Shown here piece by piece: positions 46,456-60,821 of a stretch of DNA of 64,000 nt. The notes below the pieces were generated by a model. It worked only from the letters and a program-made list of their open reading frames with translations, did not search any database and was not told where the DNA came from. Source of the DNA: Candidatus Krumholzibacteriota bacterium (GTDB lineage: Bacteria; Krumholzibacteriota; Krumholzibacteriia; JAJRXK01); NCBI GenBank assembly GCA_024276305.1, contig JAJRXK010000023.1, positions 1 through 64,000 on the forward strand, in the 5' to 3' direction. How positions within the stretch are numbered: the first letter of the stretch is position 1; each line of letters opens with the position of its first letter. Position numbers and translations under genes: made by a program.

Positions 46456-47193
46456 CTAGATTCCGAAGCGGGCCTTCACCCCGCTCCAGGTGGGCCGGTC
46501 GAGGAGGACTTGACCACAGCTCGTACCCGTGATCCTCAAGTCGTCGACCACGATGGTCTGGGGTCCGCGCCCCCCGAAGGAGATGCCGAAGGAGACCAAG
46601 GCATCGCCCGGTGTCCGAAAGGACTGATTCTGAACCTCGGGAACCGCGACCCCGTCGAGGCTGAGGCTGAAGGTGTCGGTCGTCATGTCCAGCTTCATCT
46701 CGAAGAGTTGGGATACATCCGGCGCCCATCCCTGGGGGAGGTTCGCTTCGTTGGACCCTCCGGCGTTGAACACAATGGCGGTTCCCCGCCAGGAGATCGA
46801 GCCGTAGAGGGCTCCGCTCGATCCTCGGAAGTCCGCCGAAATGAAGAAGGTGCTCTTCGCGCGCAGGAGGGACCGCCAGGAGACGACAAAGGACTGGCAA
46901 GTCTGATGCGCGATGCCGATCCCCGCTCGAATGTAGTGCGATCCCAGGGCCGATCCCTGGACCATCTCCAGCGGTTGGTCGAGGAGGTCACCGACCGCAG
47001 CGCGAACCAGGAAGGACCCCGACCCATCCGAATAGCGGAAGGTGTCGTCGGCGGGGGCGAGGGGCGGGTCGGAAGTCGGATTCTGGTCGACCGTGTCGTG
47101 GTTGAAGTCGTTCTGGAAGACGATGATCCCAGCCCCGGAAGTGGAGGCGGAGGAGACCACGATCAGCAGGATCCAGAGTGCGAGAGTCTTCAT
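46456..47193 (-). CDS. Exported LamG-like protein with C-terminal WSG-x-KAR motif
   Basis: The 245-residue protein has a signal peptide (LALWILLIVVSSASTSGAG) and a jelly-roll domain typical of concanavalin/LamG folds (FQNDFNHDTVDQNPTSDPPL, FEMKLDMTTDTFSLSLDG, FGGRGPQTIVVDDLRI). The last residues, RPTWSGVKARFGI, echo the end of the DUF2341 protein at 31026. Two cysteines and the terminal motif are the only other landmarks. It may bind glycans. Its ATG at 47193 overlaps the astacin stop (ATGA), and it is the last gene of the operon that starts at 50913. Confidence 0.78.
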   Translation of the reverse strand: MKTLALWILLIVVSSASTSGAGIIVFQNDFNHDTVDQNPTSDPPLAPADDTFRYSDGSGSFLVRAAVGDLLDQPLEMVQGSALGSHYIRAGIGIAHQTCQSFVVSWRSLLRAKSTFFISADFRGSSGALYGSISWRGTAIVFNAGGSNEANLPQGWAPDVSQLFEMKLDMTTDTFSLSLDGVAVPEVQNQSFRTPGDALVSFGISFGGRGPQTIVVDDLRITGTSCGQVLLDRPTWSGVKARFGI

Positions 47194-48473
47194 TGCAGGA
47201 TCACTCCTCCGGTGGGGGCTTCGATTTGCATGGGGGTGGTGATGAGACGGGCTCCGGAGGTGGAGGCGGCATAGGTGTCCGGGTAGAGGATGACCAGCTT
47301 TCCGTAGCTCGGTACGGATTGGACCGCAGTGGCAAAGCTGGTCTGCGGGTCGGCGAAGGTGCCGTTGGGATTCGGAGTCGGGGATTGGGCATGAAGAAAG
47401 ACCCAGTTCCCAGGAGCGTAGGCATAGCTCATGGTGGTGATGTCCCAGAAACTGAGATGGGTGCGTTGACCGATGAGGTCCTGCCAGGATTCGTATCCCG
47501 GATTGCAGTCGATGGTAGTGAGATTCCCGCGGTCGATCGAGAAATAGTACTGCCCGTAGTGCATCACCGAGTCGAAGTCGTAGACGGCCCCCCACGGACT
47601 TGCGGGATAGATCGACGCGGTGGTCGACGGCTCGAAGTTTCCCACGCAGCTTCCGCCGCAATCCGTGGTGGAGATGTTCTGATAATTGATGGTCACGAAG
47701 TCGTCGCGATCGGCCCGGCTCTGCTCGTGCTTGAAGGCCAGGGCATGGGCAAGCTCGTGACACATCACGTACTTCTCGCCCCAATTCACAATTTCCACCG
47801 TTCCGGGTCCCGCGGCGCCAACGACTCCGACGGTGGCGCGGTTGAAGACAGAATTGGAGATGCGGATGTAGCTGGCCTCGGTCGAATACGGAACGAAGTC
47901 CACACTGGCGACGGCCTCCCATTCGCCCATCGCCGCGACCATCGCGGCCTGGTAGTTGGGCGATACGCTCACCGTGACATCCAGAGTCACCGAGGCGCCG
48001 AAGCCCTCGTTCACGACGGCGTCGCCGGGATCGAGGTAGATCGCGTCGTTGGTGAGCCAGTCGATGCGGTAGAGGGTCGCAGCCGTGTTGTCGTTGGAGG
48101 CGGAGCCACGTACGAGGACCAACTGATCGGCCCGGAATCCGATATCGATGAAGGGATCGGAGCCAGCCGAAGTGAGAATGCGCGGAGGGTTGGAGGCAAA
48201 GCCGAGGGTGGTGCTGGTATAGCTTCCCGCGGCGGTGGCATCGTTGACGACAAAGACATAGGGAACCACCCCGCCGAGCCAGGTATTCGGTTCCCAGACG
48301 GTCCCCTTCTCCAGGCCCTCGGGGACGTACATGTCTCCTTCGACGAGGTGGTATCCCGGAGGAGGGGGTGCCGGCTGGGGGACCACTTCGAACGCGGATG
48401 CCTTCCCCAAGACGAGAAACCCCAAGAGAAGGGGAGTGGCGACCACGTGGGCTCGGTGGAGTTGGAATCGCAT
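47190..48473 (-). CDS. Secreted astacin-like metallopeptidase (M12A) with inserted segment
   Basis: The 427-residue protein has a signal peptide ending KASAFEV. The zinc site is CHELAHALAFKHEQSRADRD (238-257; His239, Glu240, His243, His249), followed by the Met-turn SVMHYGQY (302-309). The start of the astacin domain (GGVVPYVFV, 68-76) is separated from its helix (AAMGEWEAVASVDFVPYS, 180-197) by about 95 extra residues. The usual glycine of HExxHxxG is alanine (246). The final 60 residues look like a short beta-helix piece (LVILYPDTYAASTS). Substrate unknown. AGGAGGAACG precedes the ATG. Confidence 0.85.
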   Translation of the reverse strand: MRFQLHRAHVVATPLLLGFLVLGKASAFEVVPQPAPPPPGYHLVEGDMYVPEGLEKGTVWEPNTWLGGVVPYVFVVNDATAAGSYTSTTLGFASNPPRILTSAGSDPFIDIGFRADQLVLVRGSASNDNTAATLYRIDWLTNDAIYLDPGDAVVNEGFGASVTLDVTVSVSPNYQAAMVAAMGEWEAVASVDFVPYSTEASYIRISNSVFNRATVGVVGAAGPGTVEIVNWGEKYVMCHELAHALAFKHEQSRADRDDFVTINYQNISTTDCGGSCVGNFEPSTTASIYPASPWGAVYDFDSVMHYGQYYFSIDRGNLTTIDCNPGYESWQDLIGQRTHLSFWDITTMSYAYAPGNWVFLHAQSPTPNPNGTFADPQTSFATAVQSVPSYGKLVILYPDTYAASTSGARLITTPMQIEAPTGGVILQ

Positions 48474-48481
48474 CGTTCCTC

Positions 48482-50353
48482 CTACTGCAATGAGACCAGA
48501 GCCAACACCAAGCCCCGCCCCGATTCGAGACGAGTCATGGCCTTGCCGATGATGGCTACGACCGCACGATTGTGGTCGAGGACCTTCATGGCATGTCCGG
48601 CCGTCGACGAAGTGGTGAGGAGGTCGCCGGGCTCGATGGGATTCTGGCTGGCGTCGACCCACACGTAGACCCGTCCGGTCAGAGCCACCGGATGCGTGCC
48701 GTCGGCGATGCTTTCCCGCTGTCTCATGACCATGCCGGGGCGGATTCCGCCCGCGCCGCTGATCACTCCGGCGACTCGACGGTCGTAGCGAGTCTCGGTG
48801 AGCATGAGTTCTCCCGGGTGATCGGGGTCGACGGCCACCACCATGCCGGGCTTCGGGCGAGGATCCTGGATGGCTCGGGAGTGGATTCTGAACTGTTCGG
48901 AGAGATCACTCCCTCCGGTGATCTCGAGGGTCGGAGTGCGGATGCGTCCGGCTCCGCCGGCGTAGCTGGAGTCGATACGGATCTCCTCATTCCCTGCTCC
49001 GTCATAGAGGAGGATCTCGCCGCCGCTTCCCGCAGCCCCCGCGGAGACCCGCACCCCACTGGCGCCATTGTCCTGCCGCACGGAAATCGTGGCGTTGCTT
49101 CCATTCTGTGCATCGAGAGAGATGCGTGTCCGAAACGTTGGCACGTGGCCATAGAGCTCGAGGATTCCCCCCTGGGCGCCTGCGCTATCACTGCGGAGCC
49201 TCGCGATTCGCGAGGGCGCATCGCCATAGAAGTCCGTGGTGGTATCGTTCACCCGAAGGACATCGTGGTCTGCAACCCCGATCGCAATCGAGGGCGTGCT
49301 CGTGCTCACCGCGCGCATTTGCACGAGTCCGGCCGAGCTTCCGCTCGTCGTCAATCCCATCTTGAAGACAGTACTCCCTCCGCCGATCGCGAAATCTCCC
49401 GCCGAAGTGGACAAGTCGCCATTTCCCCCGGTCACATTGAATGTGGCCACGGGAGTCATCCCGACCCCCACCTTGCCGTCGGCGGTGATGATCAGATTTC
49501 CCGCCGGCGGCGAAGTGGCAGAAGCCGCGGGACCGATCCACAGCGTGTTGGAGAGAGTCTCGTGCATCAGCATCCATCGCTGAAAGCTCCCCCCAACCCG
49601 ATCGAGGGCGATGGTCGGGAAGATGGTGGCACCGACCTGTAGCATGGTTTGATTGGCGCTCCAGGGCTGGACAGTCGAAGTCCCGATGGCGACCGAGCCG
49701 TTTCCGTCGCGGTAGAGGTGGGCGCCGCTGATCGTCCAGTCGCCGTCGTCTCCCCCCGTGCCGCCGCCGGTCGAAGAGATGGTGATGTTCTGACCCGCTT
49801 CGCTGATGGTGACGTTGGATCCGGCCACGAGATGGACCGTGTTCCGGATCCCGTTGAGGCTACGGACCAGGGTGCTGCTTCCGATCATCCCCGGCGTGAG
49901 AGCACCGTCTTCGAGTCCGGCGGCTCGGAAACTGTAGGGCGAGGTCGTCAGTGGGCTCCGTGGCGATAGGGGGCTCTGTCCATCGATGGCGATGGAGAGC
50001 CAGACCGGATTGGAGAAGAAGATCGGATCGATCGGCGTCACCTCACCGAGTACTACATCGAAGATTCCGCCCGAAGTGGCGACGATCTGGGTTTCGTCCC
50101 AGAGCAGAGCTCCCCCGGTCACTTTGGTATAGATGCGGAAGCGGATCGAGTAATTGGCGTCGGCGACGAGGTTGCCGAGGTCGTCGGTGAGCAGGCCCTG
50201 GTAGCTGACCAATCGGGGGATGAAGGAGCTTGCGGCCCGCGAACTCGAAGTCAGGATCAGACTCGAGGCGAGACCGGCTACTAGAACCAGACCCACGAGG
50301 ACCTGGGCCTTCGGGAACCGACGGGGGGAGATGGAACAGGTCGGGCGATTCAT
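48482..50353 (-). CDS. Exported fibre-like protein with conserved N- and C-terminal modules
   Basis: The 623-residue protein begins with a signal peptide (ILTSSSRAASS). A conserved surface module follows (RLVSYQGLLTDDLGN, RIYTKVTGGALLWDETQ, GIFDVVLGEVTP), then a long beta-rich stalk of short repeats (about 180-480) resembling phage tail fibres or trimeric adhesins. The C-terminal module (about 490-623) contains GMVVAVDPDHPGELMLTET, GRVYVWVDASQNPIEPGDLL and TTSSTAGHAMKVLD. Similar stalk proteins occur in several uncultured lineages. No phage genes are near, so a cell-surface role is more likely. AAGGAG lies upstream of ATG 50353. Confidence 0.75.
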   Translation of the reverse strand: MNRPTCSISPRRFPKAQVLVGLVLVAGLASSLILTSSSRAASSFIPRLVSYQGLLTDDLGNLVADANYSIRFRIYTKVTGGALLWDETQIVATSGGIFDVVLGEVTPIDPIFFSNPVWLSIAIDGQSPLSPRSPLTTSPYSFRAAGLEDGALTPGMIGSSTLVRSLNGIRNTVHLVAGSNVTISEAGQNITISSTGGGTGGDDGDWTISGAHLYRDGNGSVAIGTSTVQPWSANQTMLQVGATIFPTIALDRVGGSFQRWMLMHETLSNTLWIGPAASATSPPAGNLIITADGKVGVGMTPVATFNVTGGNGDLSTSAGDFAIGGGSTVFKMGLTTSGSSAGLVQMRAVSTSTPSIAIGVADHDVLRVNDTTTDFYGDAPSRIARLRSDSAGAQGGILELYGHVPTFRTRISLDAQNGSNATISVRQDNGASGVRVSAGAAGSGGEILLYDGAGNEEIRIDSSYAGGAGRIRTPTLEITGGSDLSEQFRIHSRAIQDPRPKPGMVVAVDPDHPGELMLTETRYDRRVAGVISGAGGIRPGMVMRQRESIADGTHPVALTGRVYVWVDASQNPIEPGDLLTTSSTAGHAMKVLDHNRAVVAIIGKAMTRLESGRGLVLALVSLQ

Positions 50354-50373: not shown

Positions 50374-50913
50374 CTACTTGATCAGCGTTATGCAGCGGCT
50401 CTGCCGAAAGGATCCGGCCCGCAGCCGGTAGACGTAGACCCCGCTGGCGAGATCCGTGGGATGGAAGACGACTTCGTGTTCTCCGGCCGTCATTTCCTGA
50501 TCGAGGAGGATGGCGATCCGGCGACCTCGTAGATCGAAAAGCTCGAGTTTCACCGGGCCCGAAGTCGAGACCGCGAATCGGATGGTGGTCCGAGGATTGA
50601 AGGGATTGGGAGTGTTCTGATCGAGACGGCTGGGGAATCGCACTTCCGGTGAGTCGTCGCCAATTGCGGTGATCAGGGGTCGAGGCAGCGTGTACCAGAA
50701 GCCGATGCCCTGCTGAAAGGAGGCGCCAGCGTCCCAACCCACGGGCGAAGAACCGAAACTCGCCCGACAGCCGAAGGTACCGCCGCTCGAATGGACGGCA
50801 CTGACGCCAATCTCCTGCCGCGGAAGGCGATAGGCCGGCGCGGCAGGAGTCACTCCCCCGAGACTCGTCAAGAGGGTGAGCAGGCCGGCAGCCGTGAAGA
50901 CGTGAGATTTCAT
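50374..50913 (-). CDS. Short exported protein with FlgD-like C-terminal domain
   Basis: The 179-residue protein has a signal peptide (TAAGLLTLLTSLGGVTPAAP), a short mid region (SSGGTFGCRASFGSSPVGWD) and a full FlgD-like tail (about 95-179) with QNTPNPFNPRTTIRF, LFDLRGRRIAIL and SGVYVYRLRAG. Since the tail makes up almost half the protein, it may be a minimal carrier for the presumed sorting system. It is the first gene of the operon down to 46456, with AGGAGG upstream of the ATG and 20 bases to the next gene. Confidence 0.82.
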   Translation of the reverse strand: MKSHVFTAAGLLTLLTSLGGVTPAAPAYRLPRQEIGVSAVHSSGGTFGCRASFGSSPVGWDAGASFQQGIGFWYTLPRPLITAIGDDSPEVRFPSRLDQNTPNPFNPRTTIRFAVSTSGPVKLELFDLRGRRIAILLDQEMTAGEHEVVFHPTDLASGVYVYRLRAGSFRQSRCITLIK

Positions 50914-51055: not shown

Positions 51056-54000
51056 ATGTCCCAGGCGCTGCCTCGCAGCGGACTCCTCCTTCTGAGTCTG
51101 CTGTTTCTCATCGCGGGCAGCCCCGCGGGGGCGGACGCGACCGACCGCGATGCCTCGCGCTTGCGCCAACTCCTCGAATCCAGTCACTACGACCAAGCGG
51201 CCGCTCTCGCTCGCATCTCGATCGAGGCGGCTCCGCTTCTATACGGTGAGGACTCGATTGAAGAGGCCCGGCTTCTCGACGCGTTGGTACAGGCGCTCTA
51301 CCGGGGTGGCCACGCTTTGGATCCCGAGGGTGTCGAGGCAGCGAATCGGGCCCTCGAGATCAAGAATCGGAGAACGGGCCCCGATTCTCGGGAGGTTGCA
51401 ACCAGCCTCATGCAGCTGGGGAATCTCTACCTTGTGCGTCGCGACCTCGGGTCGGCTCTCACCAGCTATGACCGAGCGGTAGAAATCCTCGAGTCCCTTC
51501 GTGCGCGTGGTGATGAGGAGGTGGAACGGGATCTGGCCGTCATTCTTTCGAATGTCGGGATCGTGTATCGCCGCCGGGGAGACTATGAACAGAGTTCGAG
51601 GGTGGCCCAACGCGCGCTGGCCATTCGGACGAGATCCCTGGGGGCGGATCATCCTGATCTGGCGACTTCCTACAACAACATCGCCAACATCTTCACGGAC
51701 TTGGGGAAGTACGAAGAGGCTCGTGCAAGCCACGAAGAGGCTCTGCGCATTCGCGAGGTGGCCTATGGACCGCGACACGAAGTCGTGGCCGAGAGTCTGA
51801 ACAACCTGGCCACGGTGTTGGGCTACATGGGCGAATACGACGAGGCCCTCGCCGCGCAGGAGCGGGCCCTGTCGATCTTCACCGAGACCCTCGGCCCCGA
51901 CAATGATCGCACTTGGACCGTGCGCTTCAATCTGGCCGTACTCGAGAGCGAAATGGGCGACATGGCTGGTGCGCAGAAGGACTACGAAGAGAGCCTGGGA
52001 AGGATCCGCGAACGTTTTGGAGAACGCAGCATCGAAGCGGTGGAGATCCAGGACGCTTTGGCCGAGGCCCTGCGCGCGCAGGGGGAACTTTCAGAGGCTC
52101 GTGACCTCTACGAGCTTTCCCTGTCGATCTATGAATCCCACTACGGAAACGATACCGACACCGTTGACTACACTCTGCAGGGATTGGGAAAGGTACTGAC
52201 GGAATCGGGAGACTACGATCGCGGTCGGGAGGTACTCGAGAGATCCTTGGCCATTCGAGAGGGCTACGGAGATCTCGAATCCCCCGAACTCTGCGACGCG
52301 CTCCACGCTCTCGCGGAACTCGATCTGGCCGAGGGGCGCTATGATCAGGCCATGCGGCTGGCGCAGCGTTCGGCGCGGATCATCGAGAGTCGCCTGGGAT
52401 CGCGGCATCCGTTGATGGCGGAAGCGCAGTCGATCATGTCGCGGGCAGAGTGCGGTCGAGGGGAGTTCGACCGCGGGTTCGTTCGAGCGCTGCAGGCGGA
52501 AGCCACGAGCCGTGAACACCTCCGTGAAACCATGGGGGTGTTGAGCGAGTCTCTGGCCCTCGACTACGCGGCCCACCGGCTCAGCAGTCTGGACCTCGCT
52601 CTTTCCCTACTGGGAGATGGAGGAAACGGAGAAGCGGCGGCGGCCTGGGATGCCGTGATTCGATCCCGCGCGCTGATCCTTGACGAGATGGCGGCCCGGA
52701 ATCGCGTGCGTAGTGGGGACCGTGACTCTGAGACTGTCGCTCTGCGAGACCGCTCGAGGACCGCCCGCGAGCAGTTGGCGAACTTGAGCCTGCGGGGCCC
52801 GGGATGGGAAGATCCCGCCACCTACCGCAAGCTCCTCGATCGCGCACGAGGCGAGGCGGAAGCCGCCGACCGCGCCATCGCCCTCGCAATTGGCGATCGA
52901 CGCGGCCTTCGCAAGGTTGCGGGCGTTGGGCTCGACGAGGTCCGAGCTGCGCTCGACTCGGGACATTCCCTGGTGGCTTTCGTTCGCCATGCTGCGATCG
53001 ATCCGCTCGAAGCCAATTGGCACCATGCCCGTAATGCGGACGCGAAAGCCCAGGGCGCCTATCGGGCCTTCGTTCTTCGCGATGAAAATGCCGATGTGGT
53101 GACGGTGGATCTCGGAGATGCGAACACCATCGACCACCTGATCCAACGGTGGCGCGAGGCCATGATTGCTCGACCAGCGACGCGTGCCCGGGGCTTCTCC
53201 CGGGTCGTACGGGAAGATGCAGAGGACTTTGACGATTACGAGGACTGCGCGCGGCGATTGCGTCGCAAAGTCTGGGACCCGCTTCGCCCGGCGCTGGGCC
53301 GCGGTGTGAGCACCGTGTTCGTGGTTCCTGACGGAGCGCTGCATCTGTTGAACTTCGGAGCGCTGGTGGAAGAAGACGGGTCCTTTCTCATCGAGGGAGA
53401 GAAACGCCTGTGGTTGTTGTCGACCGAGCGGGCTCTCAGCCGAAGTCGATCGGAGACGCCGGTGTCGGAAAGGCTGTTGATCGTGGGCGATCCCGACTAT
53501 GCGGCGCAGACGAGTGCGGACTCGCCGCGGGAGAACCCGAGGCCAGCTCTGATGGACCGTAGCGACTGTCTCGATGCAGCAGAGCTCCACTTCAGTCGGC
53601 TGCCGGGAGCACGACGCGAATCTCGGGAAGTCGCGGAGCTGTGGCGATCGATTGGCCTTGGCACGGACAAGGTCGAACTCCTCCAAGGAGCGGATGCCCG
53701 CGAGTCACGGGTCAAGGCCGCGGTTGCAAGCTCTGTTCGTCGTCCGAATGTGCTCCACTTTGCGACTCACGGCTTCTTCGTTGGGGAGGAGTGCGACCGC
53801 AGCGAAATGCGTCGCACCAATCCGTTGGTGCTCTCCGGTCTGGCCTTTGCCGGCGCCGATCATTGGAGGACCGCCTCCAGCGGTGAGGACGATGGCTTGC
53901 TCACCGCAGAGGAGGTCGCCGGACTGAACTTGGCCGGAGTCGACCTTGTCGTCCTCTCCGCATGCGACACTGGCTTGGGAGAAGTTCGGGCTCGAGGCGA

Positions 54001-54256
54001 GGGGGTTTTCGGGCTTCGTCGGGCGCTGCAAGTGGCAGGCGCGAGGAGCGTGGTCATGAGCCTCTGGCCGGTGGGGGATGAAGTGGGCTATCGGTTCATG
54101 AGCGCTTTCTATCGAGCGCGTTTCGGGGATGGACGCTCTCTGGAAGAGGCCCTACGTTCGACGTCGTTGGGACTCCTGCAATCGGCGCGCACACGGGGAG
54201 TTCCGCCTCATCCGAGAGACTGGGCTGCTTTTGTCGCGGTGGGAGAGTGGCAGTGA
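51056..54256 (+). CDS. Exported TPR-CHAT protein (caspase-like protease)
   Basis: The 1066-residue protein has an N-terminal signal peptide (LLLLSLLFLIAGSPAGADA). About ten kinesin-light-chain type TPR repeats follow (about 35-480), for example HPDLATSYNNIANIFTDLG and HEVVAESLNNLATVLGYMG. A helical linker leads to a C-terminal CHAT domain (about 740-1066). The catalytic dyad is visible as HFATHGF (His905) and LSACDTG (Cys970). CHAT enzymes are caspase-fold cysteine proteases. A signal peptide places this one in the periplasm or outside. It leads an operon with an ECF sigma factor and a membrane anti-sigma-like protein. Its substrate is unknown. Confidence 0.92.
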   Translation: MSQALPRSGLLLLSLLFLIAGSPAGADATDRDASRLRQLLESSHYDQAAALARISIEAAPLLYGEDSIEEARLLDALVQALYRGGHALDPEGVEAANRALEIKNRRTGPDSREVATSLMQLGNLYLVRRDLGSALTSYDRAVEILESLRARGDEEVERDLAVILSNVGIVYRRRGDYEQSSRVAQRALAIRTRSLGADHPDLATSYNNIANIFTDLGKYEEARASHEEALRIREVAYGPRHEVVAESLNNLATVLGYMGEYDEALAAQERALSIFTETLGPDNDRTWTVRFNLAVLESEMGDMAGAQKDYEESLGRIRERFGERSIEAVEIQDALAEALRAQGELSEARDLYELSLSIYESHYGNDTDTVDYTLQGLGKVLTESGDYDRGREVLERSLAIREGYGDLESPELCDALHALAELDLAEGRYDQAMRLAQRSARIIESRLGSRHPLMAEAQSIMSRAECGRGEFDRGFVRALQAEATSREHLRETMGVLSESLALDYAAHRLSSLDLALSLLGDGGNGEAAAAWDAVIRSRALILDEMAARNRVRSGDRDSETVALRDRSRTAREQLANLSLRGPGWEDPATYRKLLDRARGEAEAADRAIALAIGDRRGLRKVAGVGLDEVRAALDSGHSLVAFVRHAAIDPLEANWHHARNADAKAQGAYRAFVLRDENADVVTVDLGDANTIDHLIQRWREAMIARPATRARGFSRVVREDAEDFDDYEDCARRLRRKVWDPLRPALGRGVSTVFVVPDGALHLLNFGALVEEDGSFLIEGEKRLWLLSTERALSRSRSETPVSERLLIVGDPDYAAQTSADSPRENPRPALMDRSDCLDAAELHFSRLPGARRESREVAELWRSIGLGTDKVELLQGADARESRVKAAVASSVRRPNVLHFATHGFFVGEECDRSEMRRTNPLVLSGLAFAGADHWRTASSGEDDGLLTAEEVAGLNLAGVDLVVLSACDTGLGEVRARGEGVFGLRRALQVAGARSVVMSLWPVGDEVGYRFMSAFYRARFGDGRSLEEALRSTSLGLLQSARTRGVPPHPRDWAAFVAVGEWQ

Positions 54257-54296
54257 CTCGTGATTCGGCCGGGTCTCGTCGCGGGAGCGGAAGAAC

Positions 54297-54935
54297 ATGG
54301 CCGACTTTTCCTCGACGATGAGCATGAACGCCGAGGAGGAACGCGCGTTGGTCGAGGGCCTGAGCGTGCGCGACCCCTCCGCCGTCGAAGAATTCGTCGA
54401 GAGAACTCATCGCAACGTCTTTGCCATGGCCGCTCGCTTGGTGGCGGAGCCGAGTGATCGTGAGGATTGGACCCACGACGTTCTCCTCCAGATTCTCGAC
54501 GAACTCGCGGGAGGATATTTTGTCTACCGCTGGCCGGGGTGTTTCTGGTCCTGGTTCGGGATGCGGGTTCGTTTTCTCCTTCTGAATCGCCTTCGGCGCC
54601 ACCGCCAGGAACAGAAGCGCCTCGGCCCGGAGATCTTCGGTGAGGACGCCCTTGCCGCGGTGGGTATCCCTGCGGCTGAGCGACCCGATCGTTTGGTCGA
54701 AGGAGTGCAAGCCCGCGCCACCATCGAAGACTGTATCGCCAAACTCACCAACGAAGAGCACCGTCGGGCCCTCACCCTCTTGCTCTTCGAGGAGCTCACG
54801 TATCAGGAGGTCGCCGACGCATTGGCCGCCCCGATCAATACCGTTCGTTCGTGGATTCGACGAGCTCGGACGGCGGTGCGTCGGTGTGTTTCCTCCGTCT
54901 ATGACCTGGCGCCGGCGGAGGAGGATCGGTCATGA
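54297..54935 (+). CDS. ECF-type RNA polymerase sigma factor
   Basis: The 212-residue protein has sigma region 2 (about 28-100: AVEEFVERTHRNVFAMAARLV, DREDWTHDVLLQIL, WSWFGMRVRFLLLNRLRRHR) and region 4 (about 148-198: TLLLFEELTYQEVADALAAPINTVRSWIRRAR) separated by a linker of about 45 residues. It lacks region 3, as ECF factors do. The ATG follows GGGAGCGGAAG, 40 bases after the CHAT gene. The next gene encodes its probable anti-sigma partner. It may drive the envelope genes nearby, but no ECF-type promoter pair was identified by eye. Confidence 0.88.
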   Translation: MADFSSTMSMNAEEERALVEGLSVRDPSAVEEFVERTHRNVFAMAARLVAEPSDREDWTHDVLLQILDELAGGYFVYRWPGCFWSWFGMRVRFLLLNRLRRHRQEQKRLGPEIFGEDALAAVGIPAAERPDRLVEGVQARATIEDCIAKLTNEEHRRALTLLLFEELTYQEVADALAAPINTVRSWIRRARTAVRRCVSSVYDLAPAEEDRS

Positions 54936-55002
54936 GAGTTCTTTGGACGAAGAGATGCAACTCCCGCTCCCGTGAGGTGGTGTTCGCAGTGGGGTTGGCA
55001 CC

Positions 55003-55902
55003 ATGACCGAGCGGAGACGCCAGATGCGGAAGTTGATCTTGGCCTACGAGGAGTTGTCCCTCGAGGAGCGGGCGGAGGCGGATACCTATCTCCAAGGCGA
55101 GCCGGAACTCGAACGGGAATTGAACCGGTTGCGAAGGTTGGAGACGCTCGCGAGGGAGACCTTGAAGGATTCGCAGTCCAGTGCGGATCCCGACTGGAAC
55201 CCCGACGAGGGGGAGATGACTCCAGAGGCCACGGAGCAAGAGGCTGCGAGCCGTCAGCGGCTTCTCCGCCGTCTTCGCCGCTCCGCCGAGGGCGCAACGG
55301 ATCGACCGGAATGCGTCCCCTTCCGAAAGCAGAGGTCTGTGGCGCGGATTGCCTGGCGCCGGTGGATTCCCCTCGCCGTCGCGGCCGCCGCGGTGGTCGT
55401 GGTCCTCGGTCCATGGAGATCTACCAGGAATCTCCCGGTTCCTGAGCTGACCGATTTGCGGGTGTTGGCCGTAGACGCTCGTGGATCGGCGCAGCGGAGT
55501 GCACCGAAGAGTTTCGCCGATGGGGAATCCTTCGCACTGACCTTCAGCGTGAGCGAAGATGCGACGGTCGTCGTCTACCATGTGGATCCCCGAGGTGAAG
55601 TTGGATTGGCCTATCCCGCCCGCAGCTCGGATGCGCCTCTGCGAGTGCGGGCCGGCGAGGTGGTGCAGATCCCTCCGCCCTCTGACCCGGAGGGTTGGGT
55701 CTTCAGCGGTCTCGGGGGGACGGAGACTTTCGTCGTTGCGGTCAGTGCGAAGGAGACCTTCGACCTCACGGCCTTGGATGCGCGGATCCGACGTGGTCTG
55801 GAGGCCGCTCAGGGACGCTCGATCCGGATCGAGAATCTCGAGGACTTGCTGCGAATCGAGATTGGGCCCACGATGCGGGTGGATGCGACGCATCGCGAGT
55901 GA
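55003..55902 (+). CDS. Single-pass membrane protein, probable anti-sigma with DUF4384-like outer domain
   Basis: The 299-residue protein has a cytoplasmic N-terminus of about 118 residues that starts LILAYEELSLEERAEADTYLQGEPELEREL, similar in layout to anti-sigma domains but without the HxxxCxxC zinc site. One membrane helix follows (about 121-137, rich in alanine and valine). The outer part (about 150-250) resembles DUF4384: GESFALTFSVSEDATVVVYHVDPRGEVGLAYPA. A direct partner of the sigma factor is inferred from order and topology only. The linker next to the membrane would be open to the exported CHAT protease. Confidence 0.72.
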   Translation: MTERRRQMRKLILAYEELSLEERAEADTYLQGEPELERELNRLRRLETLARETLKDSQSSADPDWNPDEGEMTPEATEQEAASRQRLLRRLRRSAEGATDRPECVPFRKQRSVARIAWRRWIPLAVAAAAVVVVLGPWRSTRNLPVPELTDLRVLAVDARGSAQRSAPKSFADGESFALTFSVSEDATVVVYHVDPRGEVGLAYPARSSDAPLRVRAGEVVQIPPPSDPEGWVFSGLGGTETFVVAVSAKETFDLTALDARIRRGLEAAQGRSIRIENLEDLLRIEIGPTMRVDATHRE

Positions 55903-55936
55903 ACTTCGTACTCGAGATCCTCAGGAGGGATCCCCC

Positions 55937-56530
55937 ATGAACACATCGCGCTGGATTACGATTGCCGCCCTCGGTCTGTTGTTGAGTACCGCCAACTCCG
56001 CGTCCGCCTTCGATGGCCTGCGCAAGGGCTTCGTTCTAGGGGGCGGAGCTGGGCTTGGCGGAGTCAGCTACACTCAGGACATCAGTGGTGGTTCTCTGAC
56101 GGCTTCGAGCGATCGGGAGGGATCGGGAGCAGTGGTGACGACCTTCAAGATTGGCTTGGGGTTGAATGAGCGAACTCTTCTCATCTATCAACAGAATCAG
56201 AACTGGGTCGACTTCACCAATGCCTTCGGAAACAGCGTCACTGTTGCGAGTGGGTCGGGGGTCATTGCCGTGAACCACTACCTCTCCGAGGAAGGCGGGC
56301 TCTATCTCGTCGGGGGATTGGGGGTTGCAACCTGGGATGCACCCTTCAAGGACAACGTGACCGCGTTGGTCGGCGGATCGATCCTGGTGGGACTCGGAAT
56401 CCACTTCGCCACCCACTGGTCGGTCGAATTCGATCTTTCCTTTGGTAACCCCAGCGACACCCAAGGCGGGGTGAAGCTCGAGACCAAAGCCACGAATTTC
56501 AGTGCGACGGTGGTGGGGTTGGCGTTCTAG
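55937..56530 (+). CDS. Small outer-membrane beta-barrel protein
   Basis: The 197-residue protein has a signal peptide ending NSASAFD and then about eight amphipathic strands alternating with short turns (GFVLGGGAGLGGVSY, TTFKIGLGLNERTLLIYQQ, GGLYLVGGLGVATW, SILVGLGIHFATHWSVEFDLSF). It ends in aromatic F (VVGLAF), as barrel proteins do for BAM recognition. It is 34 bases downstream of the anti-sigma-like gene with AGGAGGG before the ATG, so it is probably part of the operon. It may be the sensor or output of the system. Confidence 0.78.
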   Translation: MNTSRWITIAALGLLLSTANSASAFDGLRKGFVLGGGAGLGGVSYTQDISGGSLTASSDREGSGAVVTTFKIGLGLNERTLLIYQQNQNWVDFTNAFGNSVTVASGSGVIAVNHYLSEEGGLYLVGGLGVATWDAPFKDNVTALVGGSILVGLGIHFATHWSVEFDLSFGNPSDTQGGVKLETKATNFSATVVGLAF

Positions 56531-56873
56531 ATCCCCGACTGTACGGAATCCGGGATCCCGAACACCGCCCTTCCTCCCCGGCGACAGGGACCGGCCTTCG
56601 TGGGGGCAACCCTGGAGGGGCAACCAGCAGCTCCTTCACTCTCTGGCCGTGGAAAGCTCGTCCGGAATGGCTCCGGCCGGATTCCGATCCATTTCGTGGC
56701 CGGACCGACACCCGGGTCATCGGAACGATGGAGGACCCGGCGAGGGTCTGAGCCAACCGCCCCGTCTTCGACTTTCCCCGTTAGAAATCCAACTGCCGGT
56801 CGATTCAAGAGAAAGCCCTTGTCCTGATTCTGATCAGACAGTCTTGCCCTCCTCGATTTCGAAGGGTGCCGCC
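56531..56873 (+). other. Gene-free region upstream of the kelch gene
   Basis: These 343 bases separate the barrel gene from the kelch gene. The kelch frame stays open through most of the stretch, but the translation is arginine- and proline-rich with no domain, so it was not counted as coding. A palindrome, CGGGATCCCG, lies near 56552. No clear promoter was identified. Confidence 0.5.
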
Positions 56874-59800
56874 GTGAACGACTCTCTCACTCGTATCCCT
56901 ATCTATTGCTGTTCTGCCCTGTCTCTGCGATTCGAGACATTGCTGGTGGTCCTCGTCCTGGGGATCTTCGGTGCGAATGCGCACGCTGCAGTCTTTCCTC
57001 CCAAGGAGCTGAGCCCGGGCGACCCCCGTGTCGGCCTTCAACCGGAGGAGACCACGACCCAGAGATTGGAGAAGAAAGCATCGGTGATTTGGCAGGTCTC
57101 GACCTTCAATGCGGCCAACTTTCCGAGTCCGGGGCCCTTCAATCGAGCAGCGTGGGCCGGTCGGTCGGTGGCGCAGGAGCCGGGGTGGGTTGCCTCGCCA
57201 GGTTACGGAAATGGCTGGGACACGGTTCTCGAATGCCATTTTCTGGTCGTCGACCCTTCTGCTGGTCAGTCCGTGGGCCTGGAATTCGACTTCAATTACG
57301 ATACCGAGCCGGGCTACGACTTCTTCAGTGTGGAATACGAAACCAATACAGGTTGGCAAGAGGTTCTGTCGCTTTCCGGATCGAACAAGGACGCCGCTGG
57401 AGTATTCCAGGCTCCGGGTGTCCACTACCCGACCGACGTAGCGCCGAGTGCGATGGTCTATGCCGGTAACGACTACGGGGGACCCACCAACTCCGAAGTC
57501 GGGATTCGTTTCCGCTTTCGGAGTGACGGCGGCTGGTCGGATCAGGACGGAAACTGGAATACCGACGGCGCGGTGCAGATCGACAACATTCGGGTCACGA
57601 CCACCGACGGAACCTGGTTCGAGGACTTCGAGCAGGGAAGCTTCGACTCGACCTGCTGGAGTGGGACTGATCTCGCGATTCCCCCTCCGCCGACGTCTCT
57701 CGGCTGCAAGCCCCCTCTTCCCCCTCACGATCGCATCGTGGGGTTCGGGACCCGGGGCTACTGGTTCGTAGCTCCCACCACCTTCGACATCGCGGCTGTG
57801 AAGGCCGCTGGGGATTTGGGACCGGATCGTCAGAGCGTGCAGATCATTCGGATTCAAGCCTCGGACTCGGACTTCTTGTGGCCCCTCTCGTCCACAAACT
57901 TCACGACCCTGTACTATCTCCAACAGGCGGGCAACTGGGCCGAGCACGTGTTGACGACCCCCCTGAGAATCAATGCCGGTGATCGCATCGGGATTCTGGG
58001 CGGGACCACCAACGACGGAATCACCACTCGATCCTCCTACAGTCCGAGCCTTCCTGGGCCCTTCACCTCGGAGATTGCCGGATTCCCGGTCAATTTCTTT
58101 CGTCTGGCGACCGATCAGTCGGTGAGCGCAGGTCCGATCTCCTCGATCTTCTACTCTCCCTATTCGGAGATAGGGCGATTCGACATCATCATATTGGATT
58201 GCAAACCCACCTTCGATTGCGCCTGCACGCCGAATTGGGCCCGTCGAAATGGTACCGACCCCACCGCTCGGATCGGGGCGGCGATGGTCTACGATTCGAC
58301 CCGCGATCGCACCGTGCTCTTCGGCGGTCGCGATCGGAACGGGAACTACCTCAACGACACCTGGGAGTACGACGGCACGACGTGGACTCGAGTCGCAACC
58401 ACCACTCAACCCTCTCCCCGCTACCTCGCGGGAGTGGCCTTCGACAGCGGAAGGGGAGTCACGGTTCTCTACGGCGGTTGGGACTCGAATTACCTGGGAG
58501 ATACCTGGGAATGGGATGGCAGCAATTGGTCCCAGATCCTGGCCTCGACCACGGATGTCCACCACAGCATGGGGATGGCTTACGATCCCCTGCGTCAAGT
58601 GGTCGTGCGCTACGGCGGATCTGCTCCCGGTGGGCGGGATATCGGCACTTGGGAGTACGACGGCAGCGCTTGGACTGTCGTGACGATCTCGAGTCCGCCG
58701 GGATTCCGCTCGGGGCATGAGATGGTCTTTGCCCCGTCGTTGGGGAAGATTCTTCTCTACGGGGGACAGGCTCCAGGAGGAACGTACAAGTCGGACACCT
58801 GGACCTATGACGGTGGCTGGGTCCAGTTGACGGCGAGTGGCCCCGGTGGTCTGCAACGCCATACCATGGCCGCCGATGCCGGTTGCGGTGCAGTCTATCT
58901 CTACGGAGGAATGCCCAACAACACCAGTGTCTCCGATCAACTCTGGAAATTCGAGTCCGGAGCCTGGTCGCAGATCGGGGCAGGAATGACTTCCATCTTC
59001 GGTTCGTCGCCGGGCCTGCGCAGATTCCACTCCATGGTGTACGAGGCCTCGAGCGGAGGACTCCTATTGGTGGGAGGCACCGGAATCGCCATCAATCCTC
59101 CTCTCTCCTATGAGGGAACTTTCCGTTACGCCTGTGGGCAGGTCTTGAGCGGTGGATCGTGGGACACCGGATTGGGCCATGCCTTCTTTGGACGGGCCAC
59201 CGGTGGTTCGTGGCCGGACAGCCTGGGCGGCACTCACATGATCGTGAGCAATATTGGGTCTTCTGGGGAGGACGGGGTCTACGTGAACTTTGGTGAGGCG
59301 AAAGGCTACACCATGGGCTTCAATCCGGTCCTGCCGCCCGCGAACTCGGCGAACCCCGCCGCGGCCTTCGACTTCGAACTCCTTTCGAACACGAGCAACG
59401 ACATCGAGGACGAACAGTTCATCGCCTTGGTCGGAGAGCCAGCGGCCGGAGGCACCGGACTCGGCGCCGACTACGGGGCGCTCGGAGCGAGCGGTTTCGG
59501 AGTCGAGGCCTGGCACGGAGGGGTGCTCATCGACAGCCAGAACGGATTCGTCAACGGCCAGATCCCAGTGATTCTTCCCGACGCGATCGGATCGATGCGC
59601 ACGATCGTTCGAGCGGATGGTACGGTGGCTCATGAAGTCGTGGTGGCCGACCCGGCGCAGGCGACCAACATGAGCATCGGCGGAGTTCCTGTCGCCGCGA
59701 GCCGCTTGGTGTTCTCGGCGGAGAGCGCAACGGTTCCGGTTACGCATCTCACCAGTACGATGTGGAGAGGGAGAAACTACGGAACGGTCTCTGTGGACGT

Positions 59801-60821
59801 GGAGAGTATTGGTGCCTTCGGGACCATGATGGCAACGGGAGTGGGATCGCCGGTGGCTCTGCGCGGCGAGAACGCGGGCACTGTCCTGCGACTCACCCTG
59901 TCGCCCCAGGACGGGGTGGCCGACGAGGGCTTCGAGAGCGTGTGGCAGCCTCTGGGCAGCTGTGACCGCGCCGTTTCGTTCAATTGGATGCCCCTCGAAG
60001 GAGGCGCGGCGCCGCCCATCGGTGCCACCCTGCATCTGGGGGCAAAGGGTGAGATCAGTGGAGCTTCTGAGTCGGACCTGGGAAGCCTCGAATTGGTGGT
60101 CACCAATCCTACCGTGGGGGCCATGGAGATGGAGTTCCGGCCGGACTACGCGGCGGTGGGAAGTGCAACCCACCGTGTGCAGCTCTTCGAAGCCGGAGCT
60201 CTGATCGCGGAGTTCCCCGGGGAGGTTCTACCCTTCAGCGTGACCGCGCCCGAAATGCCGAGCGGATGCGGCAAGGATTTGGTGCAGATCGATGGCTATG
60301 ATACCGCTCGATTCCACATGGACTGGCCGACCACGCGATCCTTCACATTCTCCCTGCCCGGAGTCGCCGGCGGCGCCCCCATCACCCTCTCGGGAGACGA
60401 GATCGCGGTGGTTGCAGAGAATCCTGCGGGCGCCCTCACCCGTCTCGAGAGCTTCTCGATTCTGGCCGACGGCTTCACCGAGATCGTATTGACCTCCTCG
60501 CAGGGAATACCCACCGCGGCGGGTCCGGTCACTCCTCTTTCGAGCTTGGTGGTTCATCGGGCCTATCCCAATCCCTTCAATCCCCGGGTGGTGGTTCAAT
60601 TCGAGACCGTGCAGGTTGGAGCGGTGACGGTGGAGATCTTCGACGTCGCCGGGCGCCGGGTGCGTCAGCTCCTCTCCGAGGAATCCCTGGATGCGGGTCG
60701 GCATCAGCTGGTGTGGGACGGAGTCGATGAGCGAGGGCGAAGCGTAGGCAGTGGGGTCTATCTCATTCGAGTGAGTGATCGCATGAAGACGGCCACGGTC
60801 AAGGCCACGCTCATTCGTTGA
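56874..60821 (+). CDS. Large exported kelch-repeat protein with FlgD-like tail
   Basis: The 1315-residue protein starts at GTG 56874 behind AAGGGTG. It has a signal segment (LLVVLVLGIFGANAHAAV), a jelly-roll-like N-terminal part (about 55-270), and about six kelch blades (about 460-750) with the repeated pattern MVYDSTRDRTVLFGGRD, NDTWEYDGTTW and VTVLYGGWDSN. A glycosidase-like or LamG-like region with DFELLSNTSNDIEDEQFIAL follows at about 830-1000, and a FlgD-like tail closes it (RAYPNPFNPRVVVQF, FDVAGRRVRQLL, SGVYLIRVSD). It should be surface-exposed; the ligand is unknown. A hairpin follows at 60859. Confidence 0.85.
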   Translation: MNDSLTRIPIYCCSALSLRFETLLVVLVLGIFGANAHAAVFPPKELSPGDPRVGLQPEETTTQRLEKKASVIWQVSTFNAANFPSPGPFNRAAWAGRSVAQEPGWVASPGYGNGWDTVLECHFLVVDPSAGQSVGLEFDFNYDTEPGYDFFSVEYETNTGWQEVLSLSGSNKDAAGVFQAPGVHYPTDVAPSAMVYAGNDYGGPTNSEVGIRFRFRSDGGWSDQDGNWNTDGAVQIDNIRVTTTDGTWFEDFEQGSFDSTCWSGTDLAIPPPPTSLGCKPPLPPHDRIVGFGTRGYWFVAPTTFDIAAVKAAGDLGPDRQSVQIIRIQASDSDFLWPLSSTNFTTLYYLQQAGNWAEHVLTTPLRINAGDRIGILGGTTNDGITTRSSYSPSLPGPFTSEIAGFPVNFFRLATDQSVSAGPISSIFYSPYSEIGRFDIIILDCKPTFDCACTPNWARRNGTDPTARIGAAMVYDSTRDRTVLFGGRDRNGNYLNDTWEYDGTTWTRVATTTQPSPRYLAGVAFDSGRGVTVLYGGWDSNYLGDTWEWDGSNWSQILASTTDVHHSMGMAYDPLRQVVVRYGGSAPGGRDIGTWEYDGSAWTVVTISSPPGFRSGHEMVFAPSLGKILLYGGQAPGGTYKSDTWTYDGGWVQLTASGPGGLQRHTMAADAGCGAVYLYGGMPNNTSVSDQLWKFESGAWSQIGAGMTSIFGSSPGLRRFHSMVYEASSGGLLLVGGTGIAINPPLSYEGTFRYACGQVLSGGSWDTGLGHAFFGRATGGSWPDSLGGTHMIVSNIGSSGEDGVYVNFGEAKGYTMGFNPVLPPANSANPAAAFDFELLSNTSNDIEDEQFIALVGEPAAGGTGLGADYGALGASGFGVEAWHGGVLIDSQNGFVNGQIPVILPDAIGSMRTIVRADGTVAHEVVVADPAQATNMSIGGVPVAASRLVFSAESATVPVTHLTSTMWRGRNYGTVSVDVESIGAFGTMMATGVGSPVALRGENAGTVLRLTLSPQDGVADEGFESVWQPLGSCDRAVSFNWMPLEGGAAPPIGATLHLGAKGEISGASESDLGSLELVVTNPTVGAMEMEFRPDYAAVGSATHRVQLFEAGALIAEFPGEVLPFSVTAPEMPSGCGKDLVQIDGYDTARFHMDWPTTRSFTFSLPGVAGGAPITLSGDEIAVVAENPAGALTRLESFSILADGFTEIVLTSSQGIPTAAGPVTPLSSLVVHRAYPNPFNPRVVVQFETVQVGAVTVEIFDVAGRRVRQLLSEESLDAGRHQLVWDGVDERGRSVGSGVYLIRVSDRMKTATVKATLIR

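Follow-up and report, generated by a model that had tools for sequence, protein, structure and literature searches.

A TPR-CHAT protease with a predicted signal peptide is encoded with an ECF sigma factor and a probable membrane anti-sigma factor in Candidatus Krumholzibacteriota

Why should a CHAT protease that carries a signal peptide be encoded directly beside a sigma factor and a membrane protein resembling a sigma inhibitor? This question is raised by four genes at positions 51056-56530 of the window, i.e. the whole stretch of 64,000 nucleotides analyzed here, which stems from a Candidatus Krumholzibacteriota genome (assembly of 3.55 Mb, 98% complete). All four genes lie on the plus strand and are separated by gaps of only 40, 67 and 34 bases, and the gene limits agree with the operon described in an earlier note on this DNA. 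That note had proposed that a CHAT protease acts here on an anti-sigma factor in a circuit without a CRISPR part, and that the last gene product may sense the state of the envelope.

The first gene (51056..54256, plus strand) encodes a TPR-CHAT protease of 1066 amino acids. Since its N-terminus (approximately residues 1-27) is a signal peptide, MSQALPRSGLLLLSLLFLIAGSPAGADA, the protein should be exported. A TPR superhelix (TPR_12, 250 bits) and a CHAT domain (PF12770, 237 bits, cut-off 24) were found by Pfam search. The dyad His905/Cys970, previously noted as intact, is invariant in the alignment of the CHAT orthologues, and the window protein thus combines both features of the PF12770 family, a match above the cut-off and the His/Cys dyad. 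Among 85 sigma-linked CHAT genes, histidine and cysteine are each kept in 84, the exceptions being one threonine and one residue lost to a contig end. The predicted model (pTM 0.74) has separase, Csx29 and DdvA as structural matches in the PDB; the match to Csx29 has an E value of 6.7e-13 and a TM score of 0.57 (by target length), and a sequence profile finds Csx29 with an E value of 1.7e-5. In many exported CHAT proteins a lipobox-like cysteine closes the signal peptide, and in others there is a membrane helix at the C-terminus (L104, L159, L163, L136, L137, L146, L147, L166 and L181, among others), so that membrane tethering of exported CHAT proteins may be common.

The second gene (54297..54935, plus strand) encodes an ECF sigma factor of 212 amino acids. 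The sigma regions 2 and 4 seen earlier were recovered: TIGR02937 scores 70 bits (cut-off 42.9), the sequence also matches Sigma70_r4_2, and region 2 can be recognized, if weakly. The third gene (55003..55902, plus strand) encodes a protein of 299 amino acids for which the single helix and the DUF4384-like outer part of the earlier description could be placed at residues of about 119-137 and at residues 171-250 (DUF4384, 47.6 bits, cut-off 27), respectively. Its identity is less evident. When used alone as a PDB sequence query the protein gave no significant match, and the NCBIfam model NF052375 ('antisigma') matches weakly and under its cut-off (E 4.7e-7). The N-terminal domain has lost its zinc ligands. 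However, clear relatives (L067, L068, L069, L070) keep the zinc-binding motif HxxxCxxC, in the forms HLQECREC, HTEECPEC and HLQACPAC, and the protein is therefore very probably a membrane anti-sigma factor, as had been suspected. Furthermore, 19 of 56 other CHAT-linked partners match zf-HC2 in a profile comparison, and a PDB sequence search with the profile of CHAT-linked anti-sigmas has its top matches in the anti-sigma factors DdvA, RslA, RsiW and ChrR. The predicted architecture, a cytoplasmic anti-sigma domain, a single transmembrane helix and an outer domain, is that of membrane anti-sigmas regulated by proteolysis, and an M50 protease (site-2, RseP-type) is encoded in the genome. For the orthologous locus L061, sigma factor and anti-sigma domain were folded as one chain, a same-frame pair read through the stop and distinct from the window's own pair. 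The parts are good and the folded sigma matches sigma-E and AlgU; with a pTM of 0.48 the domain arrangement carries no confidence.

A profile of the window-type sigma, scanned against 84,980 genomes, yielded 10 loci, and the named genomes among them are mostly Candidatus Krumholzibacteriota. Five loci (L061-L065) have the window order CHAT-ECF-anti-sigma, two (L067, L068) have the order ECF-anti-sigma-CHAT, L070 has CHAT-ECF-anti-sigma with the zinc motif, L069 is interrupted by a contig end, and L066 (G010) retains the sigma and the conserved secreted neighbours, with neither a CHAT nor an anti-sigma gene. A wider profile search detected full-length anti-sigma relatives, distributed over three families, in about 13 of 80 genomes, and one further complete triad (L219) was read. 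The window-type triad is thus found in several families of the class and in two gene orders. L068 had been considered as an outgroup, as its genome is titled Latescibacterota, and was discarded because its contig is the same as one of G079, which belongs to the same class. In a further locus, L224 (G032), the CHAT gene is cut down to residues 4-207 and the final 30; the anti-sigma breaks off past the sigma-binding part with its transmembrane and DUF4384 portions gone, while the sigma is intact. This single case fits a joint loss of the sensor branch.

In the genome under study we count 11 CHAT and about 28 ECF genes. In nine cases an ECF gene is a near neighbour of the CHAT gene, giving at least nine CHAT-sigma modules; the tenth CHAT gene (contig C103) is separated by about 7 kb from an ECF gene and a gene for a kinase-DUF4384 protein, and the start of the eleventh is close to the end of a contig. 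A lack of conserved linkage had been named beforehand as the result that would refute the proposed circuit. When loci were chosen by their CHAT match only and their surroundings then read, an ECF sigma gene was present within 2.5 kb of 83 of 125 CHAT genes in 22 Krumholzibacteriota genomes, compared to 8.3 expected from the ECF number and the size of each genome. The linkage and the gene order are both conserved. About a third of these CHAT genes have no sigma gene nearby. The similarity matrices of CHAT and sigma proteins correlate (Mantel r 0.74; permutation maximum 0.09). CHAT genes also occur in other phyla, as found in a plasmid search; the linkage counts refer to Krumholzibacteriota. An unusual expansion is seen in G003, a relative of the same family, whose 5.8 Mb hold 32 CHAT genes and some 75 ECF matches.

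Three types of partner were distinguished beside these CHAT genes. In the first, an exported CHAT is paired with a membrane anti-sigma. In the second, the CHAT is cytosolic and its anti-sigma soluble and of the zinc type; 14 of 15 such cases have a subtilase gene no more than 3 kb away. In the third, the CHAT is again exported, and its partner is a membrane Ser/Thr kinase that carries an outer DUF4384 domain and adjoins an ECF sigma. Partner topology was assigned by a simple hydrophobicity scan, and some signal peptides with uncertain start codons were called by eye. On this basis the partner spans the membrane in all 59 assigned cases of an exported CHAT (a sixtieth, L014, was assigned by eye) and in none of 13 cases of a cytosolic CHAT, where the anti-sigma is soluble throughout (13/13). 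Since all cytosolic CHATs form a single clade on the CHAT tree, this match of topologies counts as one evolutionary event, and its weight as independent, repeated evidence was reduced accordingly.

By normalised score the CHAT domain of the window is about as similar to kinase-linked CHATs (0.31-0.34) as to anti-sigma-linked ones (0.33-0.36), whereas the window sigma is unrelated to the kinase-linked sigmas (0.08-0.11, as against 0.46-0.48 for anti-sigma-linked sigmas). At locus L056, conversely, the sigma is related (0.35) and the CHAT distant (0.11). Most of the window CHAT clade shares one constant element, the partner's outer DUF4384 domain, which 13 of the 14 window-type and kinase-type partners carry. 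That this domain is constant while the sigma family changes points to the CHAT acting with or on DUF4384. Since members of this clade are also found with a kinase that carries an outer DUF4384 domain, describing the CHAT as the site-1 protease of an anti-sigma may be too restrictive, and modules with a kinase partner need a release mechanism other than anti-sigma cleavage. We therefore consider, tentatively and with a confidence just short of even, that the exported TPR-CHAT and a periplasmic DUF4384 receptor form a reusable unit, which would be wired either to an anti-sigma and one ECF family or to a Ser/Thr kinase and unrelated ECF sigmas; CHAT-sigma modules overall reach dozens of copies in some Krumholzibacteriota.

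Several arrangements around these partners are recorded here. Operons of an ECF sigma, a membrane Ser/Thr kinase-DUF4384 protein and an exported CHAT are present at L092, L098, L086, L089, L116, L117, L141 and L162. Most of 80 genomes encode a DUF4384 protein of about 600 amino acids (of the kinase type where read), often apart from any CHAT gene, e.g. at G000:C2:62617-62907. L057:7829-8503 (G000:C33) encodes a membrane DUF4384-like protein of 224 amino acids with no evident anti-sigma domain. At L077 and L082, a cytosolic CHAT directly follows the ECF sigma, and a separate anti-sigma is not evident.

For the window itself, the reading that we favour, with about even confidence, is a self-contained envelope-signalling module in which a periplasmic CHAT engages the membrane anti-sigma and frees the sigma. 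The ECF sigma would be held by the N-terminal domain of the membrane protein, with the DUF4384 domain facing the periplasm. The exported TPR-CHAT may sense or bind a ligand via its TPR superhelix and would then cut, or otherwise engage, the outer DUF4384 part; the membrane stub would be cleared, plausibly by the RseP-type M50 protease of the genome. The freed sigma would transcribe its own operon together with the neighbouring genes for secreted peptidases and proteins with sorting tails. Sigma binding, cleavage, the order of events and the target genes are what we infer in this model. According to signal peptide and transmembrane predictions the CHAT shares a compartment with the outer part of the anti-sigma, and its role as a site-1 protease is plausible, with cleavage putative. 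Counted in favour of the module were the triads in several families, the linkage (83/125), the matrix correlation (r 0.74), the zinc motif, the matching compartments, the kinase-DUF4384 pairing, the decay at L224 and the M50 protease; counted against it were the single-event topology match, the different release mechanism that a kinase partner requires, the roughly one third of CHATs without a sigma nearby, the lack of a promoter motif (see below) and the fold with a pTM of 0.48.

The fourth gene (55937..56530, plus strand) encodes a small outer-membrane barrel-like protein with a signal peptide (OMP_b-brl just below cut-off). It is absent at L051/L062, L052/L064, L061, L063 and L065; as the barrel is missing from the orthologous loci read, its proposed role as a sensor of the envelope state found no support, and we regard it as accessory. 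Just past it, at 56502-60821, a large secreted Kelch-repeat protein with a sorting tail is encoded. On the other side, on the minus strand, lie genes for a short secreted protein with a type IX sorting tail (50377..50913), which is the divergent neighbour of the operon, for a large secreted 'YQG' protein of no Pfam family (48485..50299) and for a secreted astacin-family (M12A) metalloprotease (47190..48662). Counterparts of the first two adjoin the module in several relatives, in which C10 or M12B peptidases take a place like that of the astacin, and the enzymes near the module, in the window as in the relatives, have a common tail. These neighbouring secreted genes are candidate targets of the sigma. 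A shared ECF-type promoter was not found upstream of the operons and neighbouring genes, where no 6-mer rose above shuffles.

ECF operons often include their own target genes, and the CHAT might accordingly be an output, i.e. a secreted protease that is controlled by the sigma and anti-sigma and acts elsewhere, together with the astacin and other surface proteins. The secreted peptidases among the neighbouring genes and the first position of the CHAT gene in the operon speak for this. We nevertheless consider it rather unlikely, as it leaves unexplained why the compartment of the CHAT tracks the topology of the anti-sigma and why DUF4384 partners are constant while the sigma family changes, and the correlated decay of the CHAT and the TM-DUF4384 portion at L224 speaks against it as well. 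Less probable still is a CHAT that serves as a non-proteolytic co-receptor, with the TPR part binding a ligand as well as DUF4384 and the signal passing by conformational change. Kinase and anti-sigma partners would be served equally well in this way, but binding alone would not need the dyad that is kept in nearly all linked genes.

A module for defence or regulated death, in which infection would release the CHAT as a caspase-like effector and the sigma would coordinate the response, appears very improbable. There are many CHAT paralogues (11 here, 32 in G003), and TPR-CHAT proteins are known from type III-E CRISPR (PMC10028731); however, the CHAT protein is exported, PADLOC gives no match other than the TPR, and the neighbours encode secreted surface proteins. 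Moreover, a search for the Cas7-11/RAMP protein family PF03787 with positive controls found no member in the 98% complete genome. The module lacks a CRISPR part in this sense, as the earlier note had assumed, and the absence of a RAMP protein makes a type III-E CRISPR trigger unlikely. Mere clustering of two gene families that are both abundant in the phylum, with no shared circuit, can practically be dismissed in view of the tenfold excess over chance and the co-diversification.

Overall, the repeated occurrence, in this little-studied phylum, of CHAT genes beside a sigma and its membrane inhibitor suggests a protease-triggered, CRISPR-free switch in which cleavage is putative. Exported CHAT proteins with membrane anti-sigma or kinase-DUF4384 partners were not found described in the open-licence literature. 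If the envelope-signalling module holds true, CHAT proteases (separase/caspase-like) would have a widespread job outside CRISPR, namely to switch on sigma factors across the inner membrane, and would be a new class of protease in sigma factor control. The Csx29/Csx30/CASP-sigma circuit would then plausibly have had its ancestral setting in modules of this kind. DUF4384, a domain without an assigned function that occurs with kinases and with caspase-like pseudo-orthocaspases (PMC6426788), would gain a testable role as an outer receptor. The CHAT-sigma modules offer many natural replicas for testing.

The CalpL/CalpT/CalpS system of type III CRISPR includes a sigma factor and an inhibitor. It resembles the window module in that a protease is tied to a transcriptional response via a sigma factor, but CalpL is a Lon-type protease activated by a cyclic nucleotide and has no CHAT (PMC12751052, PMC11417357). 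Among PDB structures, the window CHAT is matched best by DdvA, a transmembrane anti-sigma of Myxococcus xanthus (PDB 8rot, 8rw5, 8rlz), whose anti-sigma domain also heads the PDB sequence matches of the CHAT-linked anti-sigmas; the idea that DdvA is a fused anti-sigma-CHAT protein found no support by sequence profile, which gives no CHAT match in it.

That CHAT genes occur beside ECF sigmas and that Csx29 cuts Csx30 is already known (PMC8999054, PMC10028731). According to PMC8999054, which cites Casas-Pastor 2021 and Huang 2015, the ECF54 group has CHAT and subtilase genes in its context, proteolytic control has been proposed for it, and it is reported to have no anti-sigma. The window sigma resembles ECF54 so described in adjoining a CHAT gene, and the cytosolic CHAT modules of the phylum resemble it in their nearby subtilases (14/15); in contrast, the window module has a membrane anti-sigma and an exported CHAT, and no subtilase (S8) gene lies within 3 kb of the window CHAT. 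With type III-E Craspase, whose TPR-CHAT protease Csx29 cuts the sigma inhibitor Csx30 (PMC10028731), the window shares a TPR-CHAT protease of the Csx29 fold (by model and by profile) that is encoded with an ECF sigma and a probable sigma inhibitor. Unlike in Craspase, the CHAT is predicted to be exported, the inhibitor would be a membrane-bound descendant of zinc-type anti-sigmas with a DUF4384 domain, and an RNA trigger is unlikely. Finally, the module parallels the RseA/DegS/RseP and RsiW/PrsW/RseP systems in having a cytoplasmic anti-sigma domain, one transmembrane helix, an outer domain and an M50 protease in the genome, and differs from both in that the linked protease, which putatively makes the cut, is a CHAT cysteine protease.
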